A DNA stretch of 64,000 nt from a virus. This document shows positions 1 to 37,584 of this stretch, in pieces. Positions within the stretch are counted from its first letter, which is position 1, and every line of letters begins with the position of its first letter. The DNA is taken from positions 1-64,000 of the IMG/VR virus record IMGVR_UViG_3300021368_000005. One strand, given 5' to 3'. The translations under genes and the position numbers were made by a program. The notes beneath the pieces are model-generated. The model was not told where the DNA came from. It did not search any database and worked only from the letters and a program-made list of their open reading frames with translations.

Positions 1-1268
1 TGGTATGTAAATATACTTGTTTGATAAGTATCAACAAATCTCCACTCAGATGTATTACCTAAAGAAAATGTTATAGCGGAACTATTTATGTTATTTGTTA
101 CTTGACCTGTAATATCTTTGTATTGAAACGTACCACTTTGGTTGTAATTCCAATCACCAGGTGGGTCTGTGAGAAGAGTTGCAGTTATTGCTGGTGCACC
201 ACCTTGGGAAATTTGTACTGTATGCGTTGATGTATCAATAGAATTCAATGATACAGTTATATTTGTACTTCTTGTTGATGTACTTGAATTTGAATTGTTT
301 GGATGTACATAAAATGAAGAATTACTTGTTTTAGTTGCTGTGAAATTACTATTACTACTTGTTACAGTATCAATATCGTAATTAGAGGTTACAGTAAAAT
401 TAACTCTATCACTATAACTTGAATCATCATAAGTAAAGTTAGAAGTTGAGTACCAAACTGAACCAATTTCATTTGCAGGTTCAACTGAAAAGGTTGGTTC
501 TTTTTGAACTCTTACAGTATCAGTAGCATTTGGGTCTGAAATGTTTTGTGGGTCAACAGTTACAGTTGCAGTTTTATCAGATGCAGTAGAATTAGCATCT
601 GATTTAACTTCTATAAATTCATCACCAGTACCACTAATATTAGATTGTGTAAAAGAATCACCCGAATCATGAATTCTATGGTAAAACCCACTATCACCAG
701 ATATACTTGCTACCCATGTTACCACATCCTCCGGGTCTGTTTCTATTTTGTAATATTCCCCTTCACCACCACCATGTCCATAAGTCATTACACCAGTTTG
801 TCTTACAATTGTAAGAGTAGCATCATTATCATCTTGATGAACACTAATTGTTTGTGTAGTTAATTCTGGTGATTCTAATGTAATAGTACCAGTCCTACTT
901 GTTGCATCTAAATCTTGTGATTGTATAACAATATCAAAAGTATTATCTGTTCCTTCTGAACCAGACCCCAACGCTACTGTAGCAAATGAAATATTTTCAT
1001 CGTTAATTTTGAAATTACCATCCGAGGTATAAGTTATTGTACTTGTTTGACCAGATGCTGATGCACTTACAATACTACTTGGACTTTTAGTAATAGAGGT
1101 TGCAAAGTTCTCTAAACTTAATCCAAACAACTCATTCATACCATGAGGAGCCGTTAATCCAAATTGTTCAGAAGCTGATTCTAAATCTAATTCAGCTGTT
1201 GAACTATTACCTAACTCTTCATTGATATCATCAAATCCTATTGCGTTTCCTTCTTCTGGTAATGGCAT
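1..1268 (-). CDS. Virion structural protein with BACON-like Ig repeats (3' end outside window)
   Basis: An open frame starts at ATG 1268-1266 and runs off the left edge after about 422 codons, so the C terminus is missing. The start overlaps the stop of the upstream giant fibre by one base (TAATG), so the two are translationally linked. The product opens MPLPEEGNAIGFDD and then becomes Thr/Ser/Asn-rich with recurring beta-strand units ending in patterns such as ISVHQDDND, VRVQKEPTF and VQISQGGAP. These spacings resemble BACON/Ig-like domains, which are common in Bacteroidetes adhesins and their phages. Its position next to the fibre suggests a tail appendage or fibre-associated adhesin. Domain identity is by eye only. 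Confidence 0.75.
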   Translation of the reverse strand, partial: MPLPEEGNAIGFDDINEELGNSSTAELDLESASEQFGLTAPHGMNELFGLSLENFATSITKSPSSIVSASASGQTSTITYTSDGNFKINDENISFATVALGSGSEGTDNTFDIVIQSQDLDATSRTGTITLESPELTTQTISVHQDDNDATLTIVRQTGVMTYGHGGGEGEYYKIETDPEDVVTWVASISGDSGFYHRIHDSGDSFTQSNISGTGDEFIEVKSDANSTASDKTATVTVDPQNISDPNATDTVRVQKEPTFSVEPANEIGSVWYSTSNFTYDDSSYSDRVNFTVTSNYDIDTVTSSNSNFTATKTSNSSFYVHPNNSNSSTSTRSTNITVSLNSIDTSTHTVQISQGGAPAITATLLTDPPGDWNYNQSGTFQYKDITGQVTNNINSSAITFSLGNTSEWRFVDTYQTSIFTY

Positions 1269-4200
1269 TACTTTAACCTTTTTATTTCTTCTTGTAACTT
1301 ATCTACTTTTTTATTCAGTTCTTTTATAGCTTCTATAAGTAAAGGAGTTAGTTTTTCGTATCGTACTCCATAGTAACCATTTACTGAATTCATTTTTGTT
1401 ATATGAGGTACAACCTTTTCTACATCTTGTGCTATTACTCCAATATCTTCTCCCTTAAATTGATGGATATCTTCATGTCCTTCTTTCCAATTAAAGAAAA
1501 CTCCTTTTATTTCATTTATTTTATCAAGTGGTTTGGAGATTTCAATAATATTTTCTTTTAATCGTTCATCTGATGTTGCAAAAGCAGTAATATTACCAGT
1601 TGCAGAAATAGAACCTGTAACTGATAATGCATCACCAGTTGTTGCGGTTGGTATTCTTACTAATTTAGTATCTGTTGTTACAACCTGTAATCCTCCTTTT
1701 GTAATCTCAGTTAAAGCATTATCACTTGAACCCGCCATTGTCAAGGTAGGTGTACTTGTAATTCGTGGAGCACCATAGTAAGCTCGTATTCTAGCACCAG
1801 TAACCGATGGTTCGGTATATGCATTAATATCTACATTAGTTATTTTTGTAATTACTCTGTAATATTTACTATCTTCTAAAGTTGCACTTAATGAAAATGA
1901 ACGAGAAGTACTTCCTAAATCTGCGGATGTACCTGAAGCTGTTTGAGTTAAAGTATATGACCATTCTTTTACATCAGACCAACCAGAAGAACCATTTGAA
2001 CTTTTTTGTAAAACTACTTTAATTTTAGCAGAAATTAAATGAATGAAAACTGAAGCCGCTACACCTATTATTTCTGATTCTAAATATTTGGTATTACCAC
2101 TATTAAGTACTGGTGCAGATACTGTTCCACTTATTGTAGCAGTTTTTCCATTATAACCACTACCACCAGTTTGAAATCTAATTGGGTTTGATGTAAATGT
2201 ACTCGATGTATCTGAGGTAACTCCACTCGTATCATCATATTCTGGAGTTCCTTGAGTAGAATTACTTCCATTAAACGTAGCTTCATTAGTATTTGCATTT
2301 GGAATAGTGCCACTTACAGTTGGAGTACTAACACTATCAACTTGAGTTAAATCATTTTTATTTTCAATATTAATCGCACCTGCTCCTACTTTTATATGAG
2401 CATTGTTTGAAGAATCACCTGTGTTAATTACAATACCAGAACTTGGAGATGTTAAGGCTGTACCTGAGAAGTTAAAACCTGCTATCTCACCATCAGTTGC
2501 ATCAACAGTACCTTGAATACTTAGAGTATCAGTACCCGCATTCCAATTTAATGAACCAGCTGTACCTGCTAATAAGAAGTTACCATCATCATCCATGTAG
2601 GTTTTCCAACCACCATCATAATAACCTAAGTTTGTATTTCCTAAGTATAAACCTGCCGATGAAGGGGTTGGTGATGATAAAACAAAATCTGCTGAAGATG
2701 CATCTGGTCCAAAGTTGAACTCTGAAGCACTTATCAATCCATCGGGTAATTGTTCACTACCACTAATTATCCCATCAGGTAGTTGTTCTGAACCACTTAT
2801 GATTCCATCTGGTAATTGTTCACTACCACTTATGATTCCATCGGGTAATTGACCAGAACCACTAATTATTCCATCGGGTAATTGTTCTGAACCACTAAGG
2901 ATTCCATCAGGTAATTGACCTGAACCACTTATTGTTCCAGCTGGTAATCCATCAGTTATATCACTTCCGGCTTCTAAGGTAATACTACCTACTATTGATA
3001 AATTAGAACCATTCCAACTTAATTTATCTCCAAGTGAAAATATATTAGATGAGCCAGATGCAAAATAGAATGGTGTATCACTATTATCGTAATTACCAGC
3101 ACCAACATAAATTCTTGAACCACTTCCATCTAATGTTATACCATTTTGACCTACTCTAAATGCGTTAGAAAAGTATCCTTGGTCACCACCAATATTTGGT
3201 GAGTAAATAATCCCTTCATCTATAAACGTATTTCCACTTCCATCTTGTAAAGCAGTTGTACCAGATATTACATCTGATAAATCGGTATTAACTTGTGCAT
3301 TTGATGCTGAAGTTTGTAATACCAATAAATCTGTTTCAGAAAGTGATGATGAAATAGATGAACTAACCGCATTTGCAGATTCAGAACCACTCAAGACCGC
3401 ATTAGCAGAAGATTCAGAACCACTAAGTACAGCATTTAATGCCGCCAATGAACTACTCTGAAGAGTATCATTTATTGCTCCTGGTGTATTTGAAAATTCT
3501 ATTGAACCTTGTATTGTTAATGTACTACCATCCCATAATAGTTGGTCATTTCCAAGTCCACTTTCTAGTGAAAGAGAAGCAGTACCAGAGTTTCCATTTA
3601 TACCTAAGAAAATACCATCTCCAACATCATACCCTTGTGTACCAGTTGATGCTCCCTGTCCTACTGAGATGTAAGGAGCAGAACCACTACCATATATTGT
3701 AATATTGGAAGCGGAACTTCCTCCACTATTATTCGTACCAACATTAATTGTATTTTGTACATATGATTCTTTGAATATTGCCAATTCCGCCGCAACAAAG
3801 TTTGAACCACTTCCCAATTCCTCCCAATATTCAGTTGATGATGATGGGTGTTGTAATCCATTACTTGTACCTGGTCCACTTGATGAAATAGCAAGATAAA
3901 ATAAATCATCATACAGTACAGAATCTTTTCTAGATAAAGAACCTGTTGTTACTATATAATCTCGTGTATTATCATAATCACCAGTGAATACTAAACCAGG
4001 ACCATTAGCACCTGCAAGACCAGGCTGTCCATCTGCTCCCTCTTGTACTGTATTGAAGTTTGCCTCTCTTCCGAATTCATATTCTCTTCCACTAAAGTCA
4101 GTATAAGAAACATTAACTATAAGGGATGATGATGCCGCTCCCATCGTACCAGGTAAACCACCATATTCATTTGTTGTTGGATTTACTTCGTTTGGTGTAA

Positions 4201-7200
4201 TACCAGAACCAGTTACGCCTGTAATTCTATAAGTGTTAGGAGTAGATGAATTATTAAATGTTATTTCATCTCCATCAATGTAAAGTTTGGTTGAACCACT
4301 TGTAAACTGATATGAAGAAGATGGAATTATTCCACTTGCAAACGCAGGTAACACTCCTCTTTCATTTGAAAGATATAAAACTATACCACCTAAAAAAGCA
4401 ATTGGGGTGATTGTTGTAGAATTATCAACTTGTAATCCAAACTCATCTGAGGAGGAGAATGAATATTCTACTGAACCACTTGTTAAATCTAAAGACGAAC
4501 CACTAACTGCAAAAGTTGCAACACCAGATGTAGAATCATCATTTACTAATATAAGTGGTGGTGCATTTCCAACTACCGAAGCTGAATTTGCTGATATGGC
4601 GATTGAATTTGAGGCTAAGTTTTTTCTTTTTACCTTAATAGTTGAAACTTGAGATAATGGGTCTACTGTACCATCATTTTGTTTGAAAGTTACTATACTT
4701 CTATCATTAGTAACAATCAAATCAGCAGCAGGTAATCCATCTTCTAATCTATAAATTGTTTCAAATTCTTCTTTATCTTCAACAGATGCCGTATAAACAA
4801 TTGAACTAACATTGAACGAAGAATCACTTCCACTAAAATTAGCAACCGATAATAACGCACTGTTGTTTGTTATATTTGTTAAACCACCAGGATAATCACC
4901 AGTATATGCAGATGGTTCTATATAATTACCATTTTCATCAAAAGCAGATGAGGCAAAATTAATAGAACCAGTAAGTGCTTGTGTTTTTGAAAAATTAAAT
5001 TTTATTTGTTGGAATGGTGGATTTGCAAGTGAACCAGTAAAGAATCTAAATGCAGGTGCATTACTTTCAAATTGAAATATCTTAACTAATTCAGTACTTA
5101 CCTTATTACCACCACTAAACTCTTTACTCTGTTCTATATTAACAGGTATAAAATTATTGTTTATATCATATAACTCAAATCTATAATCAAATGTTTCTAC
5201 CGGTAAGTTTCTTTCTTGTTCATCTAATGTCTTAAATAACTTAGGTGAGAAAGATTCATCTTGAGTTGGTTTTAATGATATTTTAGATATTTGCCAACCA
5301 TCTCCCCTAACATCAAATCCTAATTTACCTGAACCAGAATATGGCATTGTAAATAATTGACTAATCTCTCTTCTAGTTGCATATGATGAATCAGCAGTAA
5401 ATGTAGCAAGTTCTTCTCTAAATGGTAGTAGTGTTGTAGTAGAACCACTATAATATGCACCAGTTATAAAAGCAGTTAATGTTTTTGGAACAACTGTATC
5501 AGGTGCTTTTATAGATTGTGATATAAAAATAGGTGGTGTACTAAAAGAAGTTGTTCCTGTTCCATTTGTTGATGATGCCGTAAATATATTATCAAATTGT
5601 TTTACATATACATTTTCAATAGTACCATTGGTTACTTCAAACGTATAAGGTATCTGTAATCCATTAACAGCATCTGGTATTGTTAAATCAGTATTTGGAT
5701 TCAAATCATCTGTTATGAAAGCTCCATTTACACTTGAATCTACTACAAAAGGATAATCACCACTAGAATATAATCCACTACCAGCCTTAACAGGTACTTG
5801 AGATGAGAAAACAGTAGTTGAGGTTACTGAACCAGTAACTTCTGTACTTCCTGAGAATGGGAATATTTCTCTAGATTTTAGAGAACTAAAATCAGTTGAA
5901 CCAATTTGTGATATTGCAGTAATCTCATTAAGATTTGCATTAAGGGGTTCTATTGTTCTGTTCGTTCTATAATCAACATATATGAAGTGATTTCCTCCAA
6001 CATTAGAATCAAATATTGCTTGAGAACCAGTTGATAACATCCATAAAGGACTATAAGTAAAATCAGATGAATCCATATCATCCAAAATTATATTGGTACT
6101 ACCAGAATAAGATTCTATTACCGATTGAGATGTTGATGAATTATTATAATATAACAACGCATCTTTCTGAATATTTCTTAAAGCAAGTGCCGTTCTCAAA
6201 TTGGAACCTGATTGGAAATTTTCAATATGGAATTGTAATGAACCGGTTGATGTAGGTAGTTCACTAGAACCACTATCAGTAACTAAAACTAAATTAAAGT
6301 TACCTTGGGATGAAGAAACAGAATTAAAAGCGGTTATACTTGAGTTATATGTTGATAAAGCTCTTTGTGATGTTCCAGCAGATATATTTTCCTCCACATA
6401 TACAGAACCACTAAATGAGCCGGTACTCATCCAACCACTAAAGTGTATAAATTGGTCGTATATATAATTTGTATTATTAATATCAGTTGATGAAGATACT
6501 GATGATGCTACATAAATCTGGTCAGATTCTTCTACATATACATTTTCAATCTTATCATTATCGTTTCTAAATATATAAGGTATTTCTAATGGATTTGTAA
6601 AATTATCATCAGATGATGATGGTGAAGTAAACTCAGTTGTTAAAAAGTTTCTATCACTAAATTCTGTTGTACGAAATGGATATCCAGATTCTTGATATAA
6701 ATAATCTCCACCTTGTGGTGGTACTCTAGGAACAACTAAATCTGTTGAACCAGTAGAAATCCAATTACTACCACTTAAATCAAATAAATCATATAAATCA
6801 TATGAACGAGGTTGTGGTGCTAATTCTGTGAAATCAAGTTCACCAACAAACATTATAAACCCTTGATTAAAATCTAACTCTACAATATATCCTGTATTGG
6901 TATTACTTCCTATTGTAATAATTGCCTGTCCATTAACTAAACTTAAAACCCCACTTAATGTTCCATCTACTGCATTATGCCCAAATTCAATATCACCTGT
7001 TTCAAAATTAATAGAATGTATTTCGTAGGAACTACCATACAAAACATCACCATTAATAGAATCTAATCTTTTAACATTAATCAAATCAGCGTTCAAAGGT
7101 TCTATATTTCTAAGAGTTCTATAATCTATATGTAAATAATGATTTCCACTTCCACTATATGGTATTATTGCCTGAGAACCTGTTGATGTTGTATGCCAAG

Positions 7201-9130
7201 ATTGAGGATTATCATAATCATTAGTATCTATATCTTCTAAAGAATATTCTACTGAATTCCTAAAAGATGATAACTCATCTAATGAAGTGTTACTATGTTG
7301 ATAATATAATTTTGCATCTGTATCTACATTTCTAAGAGATATAGCAGCAATTGTAGTAGAAGAAGATGTATATGTTTCAATATAAGATGTAATTGAATTG
7401 GGTGAACCACCAACAGGTAAAGATGATGTATCACTATCTACCCAAAGTATAACATTGAAATCACCAGAAAGAGAACCTGATAAAGCAACTACCTTTGCAT
7501 TATCAGATGAAACTGTTTGTAATCTAGATGACGTACCCCAATCACCACTTGATGTATCGAGTGTAAGTGTGTTACTAGAATTTCCATCAACTGTAAAGCC
7601 ACTAGGTATTGAAGTATATGATGAGCCTGTATTATTTTGTGGTGTATCATAAAACTCAACTCTAGATGAATCAAATATCAAAGGTTTTGTTAAATCAATA
7701 CTTTGAGAATTTGGTGAATCCAATTCTGTATATGAACTTGCTGATAAATACGTTGGTGAATCAATAGGTAACTTTGATGGGTCGTATTTATACCAAAATG
7801 TTCGTACATAAGATTCTGATATTACTGTTGTTTCTCCTACAATAATATCTTCAAACGCTCCACTAACCAATGTTCTAAATCCTAATTCATAATCAACTCC
7901 ATTATAAACCTCAAAGGGAGTTTGAGTTAAGAACTCCAAAGATTCTGTTTGGAAACTACTACTAGGAACATTAAACCTAATCGATTCAAATAATAATTCA
8001 TCATCAAAGCTAACAGATGTTCCCGAACCACTTATTTGTAAAGAAGATGTTTCCCAATAGTTTGATACGTTTCCTTGTGCAAGTTTTCCAAATCCACCAT
8101 CTAAATCAGACATTGGATTCAAGTCATCTCTAAGAAGTTCACCGGCTACAATCTTAACTTCATCTGCAAATTTATAATCACCTACATCTGAACGAGATTT
8201 TTTATATATTTTTACTTTATCAACATTACCAGTAAATGTTTCTATATCTTTTATTACAATCCTACCATATGAACCAGTAACAGATGATTCAACCGTTGTT
8301 CTATTTGAAAAATCTTCAAATGTAATTGTATAATCAGATGAATCAAGTGTTGTTATTTTACCACTATCATCTAAAATAGGAGTATCAATTAATAAAGTGT
8401 TTTTGTTAACAACTTCTTTAACAGTTGCTTCAAAATCAATAGATGGAATTCTAATTGTATTCTCATCCATTGCTGAATTAAAGTTACTTCCACTTGATAA
8501 CTCCAACCTATATAAGACACCAGCTCTCCAAGTAGAAAAGTCTGTTCCTAGTGGTGGATTTTCGGCTAAACCTATTATCTTACCAGTCTGTGTAATGTTT
8601 GGAATGTTTTGTTCTAATATAGGTGATGCAACTTCTTCAATTTCAATTTGAGGTCTTTTGTAAAAAATAACTGGTGCAGAGTTCTTCATGTTTTTGTTTA
8701 TGAAAAACTCCTTTTCCCACTTAACATTATAAGCGTTTTCCCAATCAGCTGGTATAGGTCTCTTTATACCATCTTCATCAAAATAATCTTTTAATTCTCC
8801 TAATATTGTAATTTTGGCAGGACCTACTGGCGTATCATCGTAAACATGAGTTGATAGTACAATAGAGTTTCCGTCGTAATAATCAGGAATACCTCTACCT
8901 GGCTCAATGTATAAAGTTCCTCCCTCCGAATCAACTATTTCCATTTTTATCTCAGTTGATTCTTTTAAGCACTCACTACCTTCTAACAAGAAAAGATTCT
9001 TTCCAGCACTAAATGTTTCACTAAATTTACTTACTTTGAAGTATTGTGAGTTAGGGTCGTTATCTTTTATAAAGGTATTATATCCACTTAAGTTTTCAAA
9101 AGCGTTACCCTGTTTTTTTATACAAGCCAT
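1268..9130 (-). CDS. Giant tail fibre protein with C-terminal S74 intramolecular chaperone domain
   Basis: A 2620-residue protein very rich in Ser, Thr, Gly and Asn, as expected for a beta-structured phage fibre. The last ~110 residues carry the peptidase S74/endosialidase chaperone signature (SDERLKENI, then GVIAQDVEKVVP, then YEKLTPLLIEAIKEL and a coiled coil). In known family members this domain trimerises the fibre and then cuts itself off. A short collagen-like Gly-x-y stretch lies near residue 1700, and tandem SGSxQLPDGI repeats lie at about residues 2065-2132. Residues ~540-920 and ~960-1200 look like two copies of one module. A late-type promoter box lies 22 nt upstream of the start. 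Likely the long host-recognition fibre. Confidence 0.9.
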   Translation of the reverse strand: MACIKKQGNAFENLSGYNTFIKDNDPNSQYFKVSKFSETFSAGKNLFLLEGSECLKESTEIKMEIVDSEGGTLYIEPGRGIPDYYDGNSIVLSTHVYDDTPVGPAKITILGELKDYFDEDGIKRPIPADWENAYNVKWEKEFFINKNMKNSAPVIFYKRPQIEIEEVASPILEQNIPNITQTGKIIGLAENPPLGTDFSTWRAGVLYRLELSSGSNFNSAMDENTIRIPSIDFEATVKEVVNKNTLLIDTPILDDSGKITTLDSSDYTITFEDFSNRTTVESSVTGSYGRIVIKDIETFTGNVDKVKIYKKSRSDVGDYKFADEVKIVAGELLRDDLNPMSDLDGGFGKLAQGNVSNYWETSSLQISGSGTSVSFDDELLFESIRFNVPSSSFQTESLEFLTQTPFEVYNGVDYELGFRTLVSGAFEDIIVGETTVISESYVRTFWYKYDPSKLPIDSPTYLSASSYTELDSPNSQSIDLTKPLIFDSSRVEFYDTPQNNTGSSYTSIPSGFTVDGNSSNTLTLDTSSGDWGTSSRLQTVSSDNAKVVALSGSLSGDFNVILWVDSDTSSLPVGGSPNSITSYIETYTSSSTTIAAISLRNVDTDAKLYYQHSNTSLDELSSFRNSVEYSLEDIDTNDYDNPQSWHTTSTGSQAIIPYSGSGNHYLHIDYRTLRNIEPLNADLINVKRLDSINGDVLYGSSYEIHSINFETGDIEFGHNAVDGTLSGVLSLVNGQAIITIGSNTNTGYIVELDFNQGFIMFVGELDFTELAPQPRSYDLYDLFDLSGSNWISTGSTDLVVPRVPPQGGDYLYQESGYPFRTTEFSDRNFLTTEFTSPSSSDDNFTNPLEIPYIFRNDNDKIENVYVEESDQIYVASSVSSSTDINNTNYIYDQFIHFSGWMSTGSFSGSVYVEENISAGTSQRALSTYNSSITAFNSVSSSQGNFNLVLVTDSGSSELPTSTGSLQFHIENFQSGSNLRTALALRNIQKDALLYYNNSSTSQSVIESYSGSTNIILDDMDSSDFTYSPLWMLSTGSQAIFDSNVGGNHFIYVDYRTNRTIEPLNANLNEITAISQIGSTDFSSLKSREIFPFSGSTEVTGSVTSTTVFSSQVPVKAGSGLYSSGDYPFVVDSSVNGAFITDDLNPNTDLTIPDAVNGLQIPYTFEVTNGTIENVYVKQFDNIFTASSTNGTGTTSFSTPPIFISQSIKAPDTVVPKTLTAFITGAYYSGSTTTLLPFREELATFTADSSYATRREISQLFTMPYSGSGKLGFDVRGDGWQISKISLKPTQDESFSPKLFKTLDEQERNLPVETFDYRFELYDINNNFIPVNIEQSKEFSGGNKVSTELVKIFQFESNAPAFRFFTGSLANPPFQQIKFNFSKTQALTGSINFASSAFDENGNYIEPSAYTGDYPGGLTNITNNSALLSVANFSGSDSSFNVSSIVYTASVEDKEEFETIYRLEDGLPAADLIVTNDRSIVTFKQNDGTVDPLSQVSTIKVKRKNLASNSIAISANSASVVGNAPPLILVNDDSTSGVATFAVSGSSLDLTSGSVEYSFSSSDEFGLQVDNSTTITPIAFLGGIVLYLSNERGVLPAFASGIIPSSSYQFTSGSTKLYIDGDEITFNNSSTPNTYRITGVTGSGITPNEVNPTTNEYGGLPGTMGAASSSLIVNVSYTDFSGREYEFGREANFNTVQEGADGQPGLAGANGPGLVFTGDYDNTRDYIVTTGSLSRKDSVLYDDLFYLAISSSGPGTSNGLQHPSSSTEYWEELGSGSNFVAAELAIFKESYVQNTINVGTNNSGGSSASNITIYGSGSAPYISVGQGASTGTQGYDVGDGIFLGINGNSGTASLSLESGLGNDQLLWDGSTLTIQGSIEFSNTPGAINDTLQSSSLAALNAVLSGSESSANAVLSGSESANAVSSSISSSLSETDLLVLQTSASNAQVNTDLSDVISGTTALQDGSGNTFIDEGIIYSPNIGGDQGYFSNAFRVGQNGITLDGSGSRIYVGAGNYDNSDTPFYFASGSSNIFSLGDKLSWNGSNLSIVGSITLEAGSDITDGLPAGTISGSGQLPDGILSGSEQLPDGIISGSGQLPDGIISGSEQLPDGIISGSEQLPDGIISGSEQLPDGLISASEFNFGPDASSADFVLSSPTPSSAGLYLGNTNLGYYDGGWKTYMDDDGNFLLAGTAGSLNWNAGTDTLSIQGTVDATDGEIAGFNFSGTALTSPSSGIVINTGDSSNNAHIKVGAGAINIENKNDLTQVDSVSTPTVSGTIPNANTNEATFNGSNSTQGTPEYDDTSGVTSDTSSTFTSNPIRFQTGGSGYNGKTATISGTVSAPVLNSGNTKYLESEIIGVAASVFIHLISAKIKVVLQKSSNGSSGWSDVKEWSYTLTQTASGTSADLGSTSRSFSLSATLEDSKYYRVITKITNVDINAYTEPSVTGARIRAYYGAPRITSTPTLTMAGSSDNALTEITKGGLQVVTTDTKLVRIPTATTGDALSVTGSISATGNITAFATSDERLKENIIEISKPLDKINEIKGVFFNWKEGHEDIHQFKGEDIGVIAQDVEKVVPHITKMNSVNGYYGVRYEKLTPLLIEAIKELNKKVDKLQEEIKRLK
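2735..2935 (-). repeat. Tandem SGSxQLPDGI repeats inside the giant fibre
   Basis: About seven in-frame copies of a ~27-30 nt unit encoding SGS(G/E)QLPDG(I/L) follow one another within the fibre gene, at residues ~2065-2132. The copies are nearly identical at protein level but drift at third positions, so selection on the protein rather than recent slippage probably keeps them. They may form a regular beta-turn rod or linker before the receptor-binding end. Confidence 0.85.
5540..7600 (-). repeat. Internal duplication of a fibre module
   Basis: Two stretches of the fibre protein share ordered motifs. Copy A (about 7600-6480) contains NVILWVDS, LRNVDTDAKLYY, STGSQAI, GNHYLHIDYRT, NIEPLNADL, then IPYIF and KIENVYVEESDQIYVASS. 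Copy B (about 6430-5540) contains NLVLVTDS, LRNIQKDALLYY, STGSQAI, GNHFIYVDYRT, TIEPLNANL, then IPYTF and TIENVYVKQFDNIFTASS. The same order in both points to duplication of a ~350-residue unit followed by divergence. Confidence 0.8.
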
Positions 9131-9152
9131 ATTTTGTTCCTAATTATACTTC

Positions 9153-9162
9153 TATAAATATC
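9153..9162 (-). promoter_or_regulatory. Late-type promoter box for the giant fibre
   Basis: The minus strand reads GATATTTATA, 22 nt before the fibre ATG. It matches the TATATTTATA-like box found before many structural genes here, and no TTTG -33 element is seen. Proposed to be read by the phage late sigma factor (37590-38360). Assignment is by pattern only. Confidence 0.5.
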
Positions 9163-9179
9163 TCCAAAAAAACTTATTG

Positions 9180-9189
9180 AATATTTATA
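9180..9189 (+). promoter_or_regulatory. Late-type promoter box on the plus strand for the RHH gene
   Basis: The plus strand reads AATATTTATA, 26 nt before ATG 9216. This is the same box and spacing seen on the minus strand before structural genes, here in plus orientation exactly where the only plus-strand gene begins. It faces away from the fibre box at 9153-9162, so this 85-nt gap looks like a divergent promoter pair. Confidence 0.5.
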
Positions 9190-9215
9190 TATAGAAATAC
9201 ATAGAAAGTTATAGA

Positions 9216-9377
9216 ATGAGAAAATATACAACAATACAGATAAAAAAAGAAACCCATGAACTATTACAAGGGTATTGTAAAGAACATGGGTATAAATTAA
9301 GTGGATTGGTTGAAAATCTAATTAAACAAAAAGTTGGTACACCTAAACCTGATAATGTATTAAGGGTTTCTAAATAA
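9216..9377 (+). CDS. Ribbon-helix-helix (Arc/CopG-like) DNA-binding protein
   Basis: A 53-residue frame from ATG 9216 to TAA 9375-9377, the only plausible plus-strand gene in the window. It starts MRKYTTIQIKKETHELLQ and continues through GYKLSGLVENLIKQK. That is a basic strand, a helix, a short Gly turn and a second helix, the layout of ribbon-helix-helix repressors that bind DNA as dimers. Its last 8 nt overlap the 3' end of the convergent methyltransferase gene, and it is divergent from the giant fibre. Short RHH repressors usually control their own divergent promoter, so repression of the fibre promoter is a reasonable inference. A chance frame is unlikely given the residue pattern. Confidence 0.75.
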   Translation: MRKYTTIQIKKETHELLQGYCKEHGYKLSGLVENLIKQKVGTPKPDNVLRVSK

Positions 9378-9999
9378 ATTGAAATAGTGCAGAGTATAGC
9401 TGATAATCTGTATGGTGGTCAATAAAATCTATCATCTTTAATCTTGGATTCATACTCAATATTAAGTCAGTAGAAATATAATCTCCACTTTCAAATAACA
9501 TCAAATATCCATTTGGAATTAAAACCTTATCTAAATTTTCAAGTAAGTTTTTATGTAATTTTAATTTATCATCTAATACTATTCTTGGAGTAGATGTTGT
9601 TATCTTTTTATTAAATTTAATAAATTCATCATTGGATGGTATGTGAGGTGGATTACAAACAATCATATCTACTTTATCTCCATTATAATCATCAACACCA
9701 TTACTTAAATAAAAAGTTACCTCATCTTCCCAATTATTATCCTTATTTGTTTTTTTAATAACTGATTCTAATGGTTTGTGATTATCTACTAATGAAAGGG
9801 TTTTTATATTATATTTTTGCTTTAGGTGATATCCCATAAAACCAGGACCACTACACATTTCCATAAGAGAGTTTACTTTCGGCCAATCATAATCTTGCAT
9901 CAATTCAATCCAAAACTTTCCACCTCCATCTTGATTCCCTTCAAAATAAATTGGATACTTTCCATGTGTTAATGATTTTTCTAAATGATAAACCTTCAT
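9370..9999 (-). CDS. Class I SAM-dependent methyltransferase, HemK/PrmC-like motif
   Basis: A 209-residue protein with the Rossmann SAM-binding loop MCSGPGFMGYH (residues 48-58), an acidic strand end (SLVDNHKP, ~69-76) and the catalytic-type motif NPPH at 116-119. NPPY/NPPH motifs occur in enzymes that methylate amide or amino nitrogens, including PrmC-type release factor glutamine methyltransferases, so a protein or nucleic-acid N-methyltransferase is likely. Substrate is unknown. The ATG at 9999 touches the stop of the upstream SbcD-SbcC fusion, so they are co-translated, which hints at a link with DNA metabolism. Confidence 0.75.
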   Translation of the reverse strand: MKVYHLEKSLTHGKYPIYFEGNQDGGGKFWIELMQDYDWPKVNSLMEMCSGPGFMGYHLKQKYNIKTLSLVDNHKPLESVIKKTNKDNNWEDEVTFYLSNGVDDYNGDKVDMIVCNPPHIPSNDEFIKFNKKITTSTPRIVLDDKLKLHKNLLENLDKVLIPNGYLMLFESGDYISTDLILSMNPRLKMIDFIDHHTDYQLYSALFQFI

Positions 10000-12900
10000 T
10001 AAAACCTAACTTGTGAAAATCCTTTTTCTTTTTTAATTTCAATAAGTCCATCTACTACATCTCTCATTGAATCGATGTGTGAGATTACCATTACAAAATC
10101 AAACTGAGTTTTAAGGTATGTAAACAACATAAATAAGGATTGTAGGTTCTCACTATCTAATGTACCGAAACCTTCATCTATCACAAGGAAATTAGGTCTT
10201 GGTAGGTTACATACATTGATTAGAGCAACTCTAATTGCTAAACCACTAATAAACCTTTCCATACCACTACACATTTCCAAACTCCATCTTTGGTCTCCAT
10301 ATACAAGATATGCATTAATATTCTTACCATCAATCTCTAACTGCATTCCAAACTCTACAATTTGTGCAAGGATGTTATTTACCTCACCCTCAATCATTGG
10401 TAGAGATTTTTCAATCAATTCATATGATACACCATCTTTCGAAAGTGCATTTAGATAAAAATCAAATAATTTAGATTGTTGTTCTAAATCCTTTACCTCT
10501 TGAATTCTATCTTCAATTGTTTCTTTTTGGTTCTGAAGAGCAGATATTTTACCATTTAGTTTAAGAACATCAGAGTTAACTCTTTTCAACTCATCTTTAA
10601 CAGATGATTGTTTTGTTCGTACTCCACCAATTTGTTCTCTGATTTCTTTATTCTTCTGAATTTGTTTCTCATTCTTATAATATTCATCAATAAGTTGTTC
10701 TTGTTGAGCAGTTTGTGTATCTAATCGAATTTCTTCAGTTTCGGTTGTTGATAACTTGTTTATAAGTTGGGATATTTCTCTATCTAATTTATCCTCTTTA
10801 TCTTTAGCATCTTTATATTTATCCCACTCTTCTTCATATGATTGTAAAGTTTCTATATCTACCTTAAGATTTAACCTATCTTCATTTTCTTTTTGTATCA
10901 ACCCTTGATACTCTTTTATCTCAGTTTCAACCTTTTCTTTTGTTTCTAAAATAGATTTAGAATTTTCCATACAAATATCACACTCTTCATTATACTTGTG
11001 AGAATCTAAGTGTTCTTTTCTTTCATATAAGGAATCTAACTTTACTTGTAATTTATCTATATTTGATTCTACATCTCTTAATTTATCCTTTGATTTTTTT
11101 AAGTTACCAATACCAACTTCTAAATCTTCTTCATCAAATTTATCCAAAATCTCATCTAATGTGATTTGTTGTTCTTCTCTAAAAGTGATTCTATCTTGTA
11201 AAGAACCCTTTGTGGTTTCTAGGTTCTCTTTTTTGATTTCGAGGTTTTTCAATCTTTTCTCTAACTCTTCGATTGAAACTCCACTATCAGCGTTTAACTT
11301 TACGATTTTCTCATTTAGAGATATAATCTGTTTATTGAGAATATCTTCTTCATCTACCAAAGCCTTTTGGGACATCTCCAAAAGTTTATATTCGTTCTTG
11401 TCGGTTTTAAGTTCTGTGTCGATTTGAGCTAATTTTGTCGTAAAATCATCACTCTTAAATTTTCTGATAAGTGTTGCATTATCCCTATTTTCATCTGCTG
11501 CCTTTTGATATAATTTATCAAAGATATCTACTCCAATAAATTGAGAGAGTATCTCCTTACGTTCCGATTGTGATTTATCAATGAATAAAGCGTTGTTACC
11601 TTGTAGAGAAAGAGCAGTTAAAACAAAGTCCTCAAACTTACCTAAGTACTTTTCAATTTCTTTGTTGGTATCTTTTCTTTGTTCACCATTAAGTGATTCA
11701 ACAACTCCAGCATCTTCTTTCCAAAAATCTACATCTACCTTTACAGAAGTTTTCTTTCTAACGTACTTAGCCCGTCTTTCAATAAAGTAATCTACCCCAT
11801 CTATCTCAAAGTTAAACTTACAATAAAAGTTTTCTTTTCTATTGTTTAATATGTTCTTAGATATATTAGTACGAGAAGTTTTATCATATATACAAAAAGA
11901 AAGAGCATCCCACATAGATGATTTACCACTTGCATTTGGTGCAAAGATACCCATGATACCTTGTGCTTTATCAAATCTGATTTGATTACCTTCACCATAC
12001 GAGAACATATTAGAGAACTCAAATGTTTTTGGTGTCCATAAGATGTTACCAACAGAATCATTATCTTTTATCTGTCCATTTAACTCTGTATTTATTTCTG
12101 ATATCTTATCTAGTTCATCTGATTCTAGTAGATATTGTCTTTCTAAGTAATCTCTAATCAGTTGGTTTTGGAAGGTTTCATCTTTTACATTACCAACAAT
12201 GTTTTTATTTACCTTTTGATTTGTTTTTAGTTGTCCGATTGTATCGGTTCTAGTTACAGTAACTTCAGCAACTTTGAATAACTTCTTTAGTTCAGTTATT
12301 TTTCTCTTCATATCTGAAGCTTCTGTTCTTGTAAACCTTAATCTTAATCTTGGATACTTTGGAAGTTTAGTACCAACTTCATCATACACCCATTGAGGTA
12401 TCTTACCATCAACTACATCGACTGTTAAGAATCCATAATCATTATGTATGTGATGCTCGGTAAAGGTTCGAGTGGGTATATCCCACAATAAGTAACCATG
12501 ATTTTCAAGTAGTTCACCATGATTCTGTTGAATCATTGAACCTGCATAGGCAACCCACTCATATCCTTCACCAAATGTTTGTCTTTTGTGAATATCACCC
12601 AACATGGCCATATCGTATCCATCAAACATATCTACTTGAAATGAGTTTGAAGAAACGGTATAGCCGATATCTGTTTGAGCTTTGTTTACTGGTCCATGAA
12701 ATAAAACGATTTTATTTTCTCCATCAACGGTATCTCCCTTAGGCCAATTTTCCTTGTCATCCAATATAGAATAGACAACGAAAGTAAGATTATGGATATT
12801 ATAGATACCAGTATCACGAAGATAATGAATTCTATCGTTGTTAAGATTTTCGATAATAGGCGTGAGTACATCTAGTCTGTGTGAGTTATTTAAGTTACAA

Positions 12901-13157
12901 TCGTGATTACCTGTGATTAACACAGTTTCTCTTAACTTCGCACACTCGGTGAGAAACCAACTAATTTCGTGTACGAGTTCTGGTGACATCTCTGTTTTAG
13001 CATGAGCAATATCACCTGCAATATAAATGAGGGAATCCTCAATTTTATCTTCTTTTACTTGTTTTAGGAATTTTTTGAATACCAATTTGTATTCTTTATG
13101 CCTTTGTAGATTTCTAATGTGTAAATCTGCAAGGTGGTAAACTTTATTTACTATCAT
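9999..13157 (-). CDS. Fused SbcD-SbcC (gp47-gp46) recombination nuclease
   Basis: A 1052-residue single chain. Residues 1-~330 are a Mre11/SbcD/gp47-type metallophosphoesterase: ADLH (10-13), GD (48-49), GNHD (83-86), FHGP and GDIHKRQ. Residues ~370-1052 are the Rad50/SbcC/gp46 ATPase: Walker A APNASGKSS near 405, a long coiled coil, a zinc hook Cys-Asp-Ile-Cys at ~726-729, a signature CSGMERF near 965 and Walker B FLVIDEGFG near 992. In T4 and in bacteria these are two proteins forming an M2R2 complex that processes DNA ends for recombination; here they are one polypeptide. No stop or frameshift is seen at the junction. Lies between primase and methyltransferase with overlapping ends. Confidence 0.93.
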   Translation of the reverse strand: MIVNKVYHLADLHIRNLQRHKEYKLVFKKFLKQVKEDKIEDSLIYIAGDIAHAKTEMSPELVHEISWFLTECAKLRETVLITGNHDCNLNNSHRLDVLTPIIENLNNDRIHYLRDTGIYNIHNLTFVVYSILDDKENWPKGDTVDGENKIVLFHGPVNKAQTDIGYTVSSNSFQVDMFDGYDMAMLGDIHKRQTFGEGYEWVAYAGSMIQQNHGELLENHGYLLWDIPTRTFTEHHIHNDYGFLTVDVVDGKIPQWVYDEVGTKLPKYPRLRLRFTRTEASDMKRKITELKKLFKVAEVTVTRTDTIGQLKTNQKVNKNIVGNVKDETFQNQLIRDYLERQYLLESDELDKISEINTELNGQIKDNDSVGNILWTPKTFEFSNMFSYGEGNQIRFDKAQGIMGIFAPNASGKSSMWDALSFCIYDKTSRTNISKNILNNRKENFYCKFNFEIDGVDYFIERRAKYVRKKTSVKVDVDFWKEDAGVVESLNGEQRKDTNKEIEKYLGKFEDFVLTALSLQGNNALFIDKSQSERKEILSQFIGVDIFDKLYQKAADENRDNATLIRKFKSDDFTTKLAQIDTELKTDKNEYKLLEMSQKALVDEEDILNKQIISLNEKIVKLNADSGVSIEELEKRLKNLEIKKENLETTKGSLQDRITFREEQQITLDEILDKFDEEDLEVGIGNLKKSKDKLRDVESNIDKLQVKLDSLYERKEHLDSHKYNEECDICMENSKSILETKEKVETEIKEYQGLIQKENEDRLNLKVDIETLQSYEEEWDKYKDAKDKEDKLDREISQLINKLSTTETEEIRLDTQTAQQEQLIDEYYKNEKQIQKNKEIREQIGGVRTKQSSVKDELKRVNSDVLKLNGKISALQNQKETIEDRIQEVKDLEQQSKLFDFYLNALSKDGVSYELIEKSLPMIEGEVNNILAQIVEFGMQLEIDGKNINAYLVYGDQRWSLEMCSGMERFISGLAIRVALINVCNLPRPNFLVIDEGFGTLDSENLQSLFMLFTYLKTQFDFVMVISHIDSMRDVVDGLIEIKKEKGFSQVRF

Positions 13158-14114: not shown

Positions 14115-14147
14115 GTAAATATACGAAAAATATTTTAATTTTCCAAG
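14115..14147 (-). promoter_or_regulatory. Class 1 (host-like) promoter for the primase operon
   Basis: On the minus strand a CTTGG (-33) is followed by 19 nt and TATATTTAC (-7), with TTTTCG directly before the -7 box, as in the seven related promoters. The -7 box lies 20 nt before the primase ATG. The -33 box overlaps the last codons of the GIY-YIG gene upstream. The downstream dyad is weak here (TTTACATTGTTTT). Confidence 0.8.
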
Positions 14148-14629
14148 TCTTTTCTAAAAAATTTTCCTAATAGATTATCGTTTAATGCCATATCATCACC
14201 CAAAACATCGTGTGAAAACTGTTCTTGTAACTCATAGTAGGTTAAAGCCTTCTTATTTTTACAAAATTTAAGGATTTTTAACTCCAATCTATCATTTATA
14301 TCATCTCTCCTATCTTCTAAAAGAGCTGTTTCATTTTCATGAAACCATAATTGTACAGTAGGATTAGAAGAACGATACTTTCTCCAATCAGATTCTTTTT
14401 GAACCATTTCGTACTTTTTCATTCGTTTATCTTCAAGTTTAGCAATTTCTCGTTTACCAAATTTTCTTTTTCTAACAGAAACTACTTGTTTCTTTCCGAT
14501 ATAGTATTGGCCTGTTTCGCCATTTGTTATTTTGTAGATAAAACCAAAAGTTCCTTCTGGCATGTCTGATAATTCTGTTATAATTTGTCCTTTATATGTC
14601 CAACTCATAGTTAAAAATTTTGAAATCAT
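14135..14629 (-). CDS. GIY-YIG nuclease-like protein
   Basis: A 164-residue protein with the GIY-YIG hallmark spread over residues 29-45 (GFIYKITN then YYIGKK), followed by a basic segment with several Arg/Lys and a helical C terminus. Phages carry such proteins as Seg-like free-standing homing endonucleases or repair nucleases. The first motif is degenerate (GFIY), and which residues are catalytic cannot be settled by eye. The 38-nt overlap with the upstream sulfotransferase gene makes the internal ATG at 14608 (MSWTYKG) a plausible real start. Confidence 0.75.
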   Translation of the reverse strand: MISKFLTMSWTYKGQIITELSDMPEGTFGFIYKITNGETGQYYIGKKQVVSVRKRKFGKREIAKLEDKRMKKYEMVQKESDWRKYRSSNPTVQLWFHENETALLEDRRDDINDRLELKILKFCKNKKALTYYELQEQFSHDVLGDDMALNDNLLGKFFRKDLEN

Positions 14630-35877: not shown

Positions 35878-37584
35878 TTATAGTATCTTTTTTTTGATAA
35901 TGTAGTTGTGAATCACAAGAGTATCCATTTCACAATTTAAGAAGGTTTCTATTGCCGATTTGGGGTCTAATACCATTGTCTGGTCTTTTAGATTAAATGA
36001 AGTATTAATTACAATAGGATATCCATTATCAGTATTCAACTGTGTAAGTAACTTATATAATCGATTATGTTGTTTGTGTTGTAGTGATTGAATTCTAGCA
36101 GAACCATCTATGTGGGTTATAGCAGGAAGTTTATCTCTATACTCTTCTTTAACTTTAACAACTTGATTCATATATGGAACATCTTTAATATAATCAAAAT
36201 ATCTAGATTGTTCTTCTGATTTTACTATTGGAGCGAAAGGTCTAAACCCTTCTCTCTTTTTAATAATACTGTTCAGTTTATCTTTCATCTGAGGGTCACA
36301 TGGATTGGCAAGAATAGAACGATTGCCTAATGCTCTTGCACCAAATTCCATTTTACCTTCAAACCACCCCACTACATTTCCATTTGTAATTTCTTTAGAA
36401 ATGATAGGTATGATTTCAGAATGTGTTTTCTTCTCGAACCAAACATCAACATTCATTTCTTCTAATACATCTTCAACATCCGAGTTTAAGTAATGAGGTC
36501 CTAGGTATGGAGTTTTGTTGTCAGGTCTATGCTCTCCATTTCTAACATGATATAGATGTAACGCGGCTCCAATTGCAGAACCTGCATCAGATGGAGCTGG
36601 TGGAATCCAAATATTTCTAAAGTTTGATTTTTCTAACACTTTTCCATTAGCAGTTCCATTATAGGCACACCCACCACTTAAACATAAGTTATGAGATGAA
36701 CGAAGTGCATATAATCTATCCACCAATCTAAAGAATAAAAATTCATATTCTTGTTGTAAAGTTGCTGCCAAATCTTTATGTGGTTGATTTAGGTTATCTT
36801 CGGGTAATCTGTTAGGTATCCCAAATAATTTTCCTAGTTTTTCATTAAACATATGAGTATCCGACCAATCATATGTAAAATAATCCATATTAAATTCAAA
36901 CCCACCATCATCAGTAAGAGTATATAGTTTTTTGAATTTATGAGTAAACTTTTTTGGATTACCATAAGGAGCCAATCCCATAACTTTATATTCACCCTCG
37001 TTTGGTTTGAATCCTAAGAATGCAGTTATTGCTGAGTACAACATACCAAGTGAATGTGGGAATTTTATATGTTGTACTTTTGTGATTTTATTTGCCTCAC
37101 CATAATACATACAAGTAGTTTCCCACTCACCCACTCCATCTACTGTTAGTATGGATGCTTTATCAAAAGGTGATGTATAGAATGCATAAGCAGCATGAGA
37201 AAGATGGTGGTCTCCATAAAATATTTCAATATCTTTATGAGTTATATCTACAATTTGATTTTCAAATCTAGTGTACTTTAGTTTATTTCTTTTAACTATA
37301 TTAGTACGATTAAAAAATTGAGATATGGGCCCTCTCTTAACTGATTGTGTTATTCTATCTATTTTGGATTCAGGATTATCATAAAAAGCAACACCTTCAA
37401 TATTAATTCCCTTAATATTAAATTCTTTATACAACCAATTGATTGTATTAATAGGAAAAGATGAATCGTGTTTTACACCTGTGAATCGTTCTTCCTCACA
37501 AGCACCTAAAACCTTTCCATCTTTAATTAAAGCTGCGGCACTATCATGATACCCACATGATACTCCTAAAATATAACCTTGCAT
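35878..37584 (-). CDS. Carbamoyltransferase, NodU/CmcH family
   Basis: 568 residues, full length for the family. The N-terminal Kae1/TsaD-like part has GVSCGYHDSAAALI, CEEERFTGVKHDSSFP, the metal site GDHHLSHAAYAFY (~122-134) and VDGVGEWETT. The C-terminal part has LSGGCAYNGTANGK, FGARALGNRSILA and REGFRPFAPIV. The enzymes transfer a carbamoyl group from carbamoyl phosphate, via carbamoyl-AMP, to a hydroxyl on a sugar, antibiotic or nodulation factor. A phage copy could modify a nucleotide, a glycan or a virion part. It follows the late sigma gene by 5 nt. Confidence 0.93.
   Translation of the reverse strand: MQGYILGVSCGYHDSAAALIKDGKVLGACEEERFTGVKHDSSFPINTINWLYKEFNIKGINIEGVAFYDNPESKIDRITQSVKRGPISQFFNRTNIVKRNKLKYTRFENQIVDITHKDIEIFYGDHHLSHAAYAFYTSPFDKASILTVDGVGEWETTCMYYGEANKITKVQHIKFPHSLGMLYSAITAFLGFKPNEGEYKVMGLAPYGNPKKFTHKFKKLYTLTDDGGFEFNMDYFTYDWSDTHMFNEKLGKLFGIPNRLPEDNLNQPHKDLAATLQQEYEFLFFRLVDRLYALRSSHNLCLSGGCAYNGTANGKVLEKSNFRNIWIPPAPSDAGSAIGAALHLYHVRNGEHRPDNKTPYLGPHYLNSDVEDVLEEMNVDVWFEKKTHSEIIPIISKEITNGNVVGWFEGKMEFGARALGNRSILANPCDPQMKDKLNSIIKKREGFRPFAPIVKSEEQSRYFDYIKDVPYMNQVVKVKEEYRDKLPAITHIDGSARIQSLQHKQHNRLYKLLTQLNTDNGYPIVINTSFNLKDQTMVLDPKSAIETFLNCEMDTLVIHNYIIKKKIL

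Follow-up and report, generated by a model that had tools for sequence, protein, structure and literature searches.

A conserved, probably autoregulated ribbon-helix-helix gene lies antisense beside the tail fibre gene of uncultured aquatic phages

Small repressors of the ribbon-helix-helix (RHH) class that control their own genes through repeated operators are already known. Phage P22 Arc and plasmid CopG, which belong to temperate-phage and plasmid copy-number control, are RHH proteins of about 45-53 residues; to our knowledge, neither has been linked to a gene that diverges from a tail fibre gene. Some RHH proteins, among them omega, the repressor of plasmid pSM19035, occupy repeats in their own promoter by cooperative binding, and their affinity depends on the number of repeats; the omega operator consists of 7-bp repeats (heptads; PMC3874152). 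For phage T4, the late promoter consensus in the sense direction is TATAAATA (PMC1524935). Here, we describe an RHH gene lying antisense between a recombination nuclease gene and a tail fibre gene, with facing promoter-like boxes at fixed spacing. No description of this gene, of such a conserved arrangement or of tail fibre regulation by an RHH protein was found in the open-access literature searched.

The window, i.e., the whole stretch of DNA analysed, covers 64 kb of a viral record of 73,613 bases, which is itself a fragment. The features of the junction are the following:

1268..9130, minus strand: divergent fibre gene, 2620 aa, with an S74 endosialidase-chaperone domain near the C-terminus (E 1.6e-14)
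9153..9161, minus strand: ATATTTATA box facing the fibre gene, 22 nt before the fibre ATG; its core is present in nearly all related junctions
9181..9189, plus strand: ATATTTATA box directed toward the RHH gene, 26 nt before the RHH ATG
9187..9216, plus strand: tandem array TATAGAAATA CATAGAAAGT TATAGAATGA, three 10-bp units (YATAGAAANN), predicted RHH operator
9216..9377, plus strand: RHH gene, 53 aa
9370..9999, minus strand: convergent gene with a small-methyltransferase domain (Pfam MTS, E 1.9e-10)
9999..13157, minus strand: fused SbcCD (gp47/gp46-like) recombination nuclease (PHROG_77, SbcC-like, E 2.4e-60)

The layout is as the first-pass annotation had described it: the ORF coordinates match a 53-residue plus-strand gene divergent from a 2620-residue fibre, and the 85-nt gap between them (9131-9215) holds one ATATTTATA box per strand, correctly directed toward the fibre and the RHH gene, respectively. 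Calling the 2620-aa protein a fibre is reasonable because of its S74 domain near the C-terminus. On the other side of the junction, the methyltransferase gene is a window-specific neighbour, missing there in most relatives, and SbcCD is the conserved downstream neighbour, as judged from their gene order. Further along, a SegE-like GIY-YIG endonuclease gene (window 14135-14629, Pfam E 1.5e-20) adjoins a primase-like gene.

Relatives of the RHH protein are found in 155 viral stretches of IMG/VR, at up to 96% identity, when its own sequence is used for the search, and a profile search of IMG/VR with the RHH family returns 198 relatives; tblastn of the protein against cultured phages gives no match. 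In comparisons of the gene with six close relatives, synonymous differences number 8-11 (about 31 sites) and nonsynonymous ones 3-7 (about 122 sites). By sequence comparison, the ATG-started ORF 9216-9377(+) is thus a real gene, as indicated by its relatives, its synonymous excess, its PHROG match and its predicted fold, and the protein-level constraint together with the conserved family argues that the RHH protein itself is under selection.

The protein matches PHROG_3180, labelled Arc-like repressor (E 5.6e-5), and every one of its Pfam and NCBIfam matches is under the curated cut-off. Its AlphaFold2 model (monomer, 49-row alignment, mean pLDDT 78) has an extended N-terminus followed by helices 11-24 and 28-40, i.e., the strand-helix-helix order of the RHH (MetJ/Arc) superfamily over about 45 residues, the strand itself being unassigned in the monomer. 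Almost every PDB neighbour listed for the model is an RHH protein, with Arc, CopG and omega among them. Taken singly, these matches are all weak (best Foldseek E 0.24, Z up to 6.2). The fold predicted for residues 1-53 therefore agrees with the RHH identity first proposed from the sequence. A PDB sequence search with the RHH family profile gave matches only at chance level.

The C-terminus of the protein carries a tail around KPxNVL (window 9336-9374, and relatives in A1 and A3), which is modelled with low confidence. This tail extends beyond the RHH domain and is partly common to the A1 and K types described below; its conservation suggests a contact with a partner. The last RHH codons overlap the convergent gene, which may place an extra constraint on the tail. 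Like omega (PMC3874152), the protein is small and of RHH type, and its own promoter region contains repeats that form a predicted operator. However, omega sits in a plasmid toxin-antitoxin operon, whereas the RHH gene has no adjacent toxin gene such as a type II antitoxin would have in its operon: no plus-strand gene follows it, and its downstream neighbour is convergent, as it also is in those phage relatives that were inspected.

The ATATTTATA box is found in 12 exact copies in the window, against a mean of 4.7 in shuffled sequences, and none of 100 shuffles reaches 12. Eleven of these copies are on the minus strand, at the starts of minus-strand genes, and the sole plus-strand copy precedes the RHH gene. 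T4 late promoters are likewise short A+T-rich boxes just before structural genes, but their sense-strand TATAAATA appears here as its reverse complement, since the box read in the gene direction is ATATTTATA at all 12 sites (PMC1524935). The description of the fibre gene as "T4-like late" in the first-pass annotation is for that reason not established, and the label "late-type" of the boxes reflects local usage only. T4 late promoters depend on the late sigma factor gp55, on gp33 and on the clamp; gp55 has no match among those window proteins that were scanned, the record being partial. In a carbamoyltransferase-like gene (window 35878-37584, PHROG_1601, E 3.8e-116), only 6 nt separate the ATATTTATA box from the start as annotated.

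Another class of promoter-like element, TTTCGTATATTTAC and its variants, is found on the minus strand at window positions 14128, 39259, 47436, 53592, 54494, 54890 and 63987, mainly before metabolic genes. Primase, endonuclease and nucleotidyltransferase genes are also among those that it precedes. Its sequence is similar to the -33/-7 promoter of Bacteroidetes, TTTG/TAnnTTTG (PMC6847099), which suggests that the host of the phage may belong to the Bacteroidota. The RHH gene was given as the only plus-strand gene in the first-pass annotation; all host-like promoter matches in the window are on the minus strand, as are its four tRNAs.

The array at 9187-9216, which was absent from the first-pass annotation, separates the RHH box from the start codon of the gene, and its three 10-bp repeats form a predicted operator in the gene's own promoter region, as in omega or CopG, but with a period of 10 bp instead of the 7 bp of omega. 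Nowhere else in the 64 kb do three 10-bp units agree in 7 or more of their 10 columns, and the array is also the only exact match to ATAGAA-N4-ATAGAA in the window. Taken by itself, the window array has only a moderately low probability of arising by chance: p is 0.008 when the period is set at 10 and 0.165 when any period from 6 to 15 is allowed. Across relatives, lag-10 identity is 0.65 versus 0.37 expected in the window's group and 0.57 versus 0.41 expected in a second group. Both groups have another peak at lag 20, and the second also has one at lag 30; kinship among relatives is ignored in these statistics, as in those on spacing. The repeat sequence differs between the two groups and the 10-bp period is common to both. 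AAAGAAAACTAA, which is part of the second group's array, is also present within a coding sequence of several relatives, where it was not counted as an operator. In two relatives (L077:3387-4001 and L080:3387-4001), an SGNH-hydrolase-like gene is inserted between the box and array, on one side, and the RHH gene, on the other; box and array remain upstream of the inserted gene, as fits a promoter element.

A search with DNA only, for three ATAGAA units at 10-bp spacing, fetched 88 stretches, among them nine contigs of the RHH family and one otherwise unrelated contig, L129, in which a distant RHH gene (38% identity) starts 17 bp from the array. The L129 protein matches Pfam Omega_Repress with an E of 5e-4, under the curated cut-off, and a search for its relatives returned only itself; given the more than 70 other loci fetched, this pairing could be luck. 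The majority of the 88 stretches lack an RHH neighbour and consist of 10-bp repeats that are simple or unrelated, so the ATAGAA motif alone is unspecific.

The spacing of the junction is nearly fixed. Wherever the RHH box is canonical (41 of 41 distinct junctions), the two boxes lie 19-21 bp from each other, and the distance from the RHH box to the ATG ranges from 27 to 62 bp, with clusters near 27, 38, 50 and 61 (steps of about 10-12 bp), as expected if repeat units were gained and lost. When the box definition is relaxed slightly and the sample is widened, the spacing is 17-21 bp in 57 of 69 junctions; 54 of the 69 fall at 18-21 bp, against a mean of 1.0 and a maximum of 5 in mononucleotide shuffles, which ignore kinship. 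A nearer variant RHH box, mostly ATACTTAT, is found at 11-13 bp in 11 of the 69 (one subclade), and L331 has no recognisable RHH box in the range examined.

When SbcCD is used as the anchor instead of the RHH gene, 80 loci are obtained. The order SbcCD then fibre, on the same strand, is widespread among them and extends to Microcystis phage Mel-JY01, where SbcCD is followed by a same-strand gene homologous to the fibre N-terminus; the Mel-JY01 junction differs by the lack of an RHH gene and by a different methyltransferase gene. An antisense RHH gene of the window's type (A1) lies in the junction of 26 loci, and 12 further loci, missed by the A1 profile, have a second type (K, "MKKKYSFTIEESL...") at the same place, also with facing boxes. 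The two types align over nearly their whole length (hhalign probability 92%, E 5e-7) and have the same predicted helices, and PHROG_3180 is matched by all four of the K proteins that were compared with PHROGs (E 9.5e-6 to 0.09). At their junction, K-type relatives have no ATAGAA array, so a K-type operator would have to differ.

In an SbcCD tree made with a quick method and having several long branches, 37 of the 38 RHH-bearing rows fall inside one clade of 41 rows (support 97), which also includes two RHH-less pairs. This distribution favours a single gain of the RHH gene, vertical descent and at least two losses; from these comparisons, the SbcCD-fibre order is older than the antisense RHH gene, which belongs to one clade. 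Related phages without the RHH gene mostly retain the fibre box. Inside the clade, RHH-less L304 and L323 have kept it, with no facing RHH box seen; in L281, the boxes are degenerate, and L319 is a further RHH-less member. RHH relatives of 53-67% identity are also present on three contigs (L084:464-616, L085:1068-1217 and L086:3211-3384) binned to Bacteroidota metagenome genomes (Chitinophaga, Pedobacter), where the surrounding genes look chromosomal; these chromosome-like copies have no repeat array.

The best reading of these results, which we consider reasonably probable, is that of an autoregulated RHH repressor with its operator over its own transcription start and a possible indirect effect on the fibre promoter. 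The RHH transcription factor would be made from its own ATATTTATA promoter, and its dimers would bind side by side on the tandem 10-bp repeats just downstream of the RHH box. The bound array, if positioned over the start as we assume, would cover the RHH transcription start and leader, and RHH transcription would then be shut off by its own product. We infer binding to the array, autorepression, and promoter competition together with its sign; for binding and autorepression, the grounds are the position of the array and the behaviour of omega (PMC3874152). The autoregulation suggested in the first-pass annotation gains support from an array between box and ATG whose period is kept across the family. 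The fibre and RHH promoters are back to back at a nearly fixed 17-21 bp. At this distance, about two helical turns, the two promoters can probably not be occupied by polymerases at the same time, so that RHH binding may free the fibre promoter instead of blocking it. RHH occupancy would therefore change the firing of the fibre promoter more plausibly by removing a competing promoter than by direct block. A more specific version, which we regard as tentative and rather unlikely, is a timing switch: with promoters excluding each other at this distance in the late programme, the RHH promoter would hold back the fibre until enough RHH has built up to close that promoter, whereupon fibre synthesis would be released.

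The sharing of one gap by two promoters at nearly fixed spacing, and the maintenance of the RHH gene beside the fibre across the clade, could also be expected of the dedicated fibre repressor proposed in the first-pass annotation, which would be bound at the junction and block the fibre promoter, delaying or limiting the largest structural protein. This proposal is less favoured and seems unlikely, because the array lies toward the RHH gene, some 26-55 bp upstream of the fibre box, and because RHH-less relatives mostly keep the fibre box, including L304 and L323 within the clade. Small phage RHH proteins often act in trans, and the main targets of the RHH protein might be host genes or other genes of the phage, its role at the junction being limited to autoregulation. 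Its conserved C-terminal tail past the RHH domain could bind a partner, and further targets may lie outside a 73.6-kb fragment; yet the 64-kb window has neither a second exact ATAGAA-N4-ATAGAA nor a second three-unit 10-bp array, and we consider main action elsewhere doubtful, indeed quite unlikely. Finally, since the RHH gene is convergent with the gene downstream of it, which it overlaps or almost touches both in the window and in relatives, the plus-strand transcript could matter more than the protein, as an antisense RNA lowering methyltransferase and SbcCD expression, but the strong protein-level constraint and the conserved protein family make this very improbable.

In T4-like phages, the usual view is that a late sigma factor turns on the structural genes jointly, with little control of individual genes. 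The presence, in a large group of uncultured aquatic phages, of a conserved repressor-like gene that is probably self-regulated and keeps a fixed promoter spacing beside the fibre suggests a separate control layer. With a predicted operator, variation in its copy number and natural RHH-less relatives, this control is directly testable.
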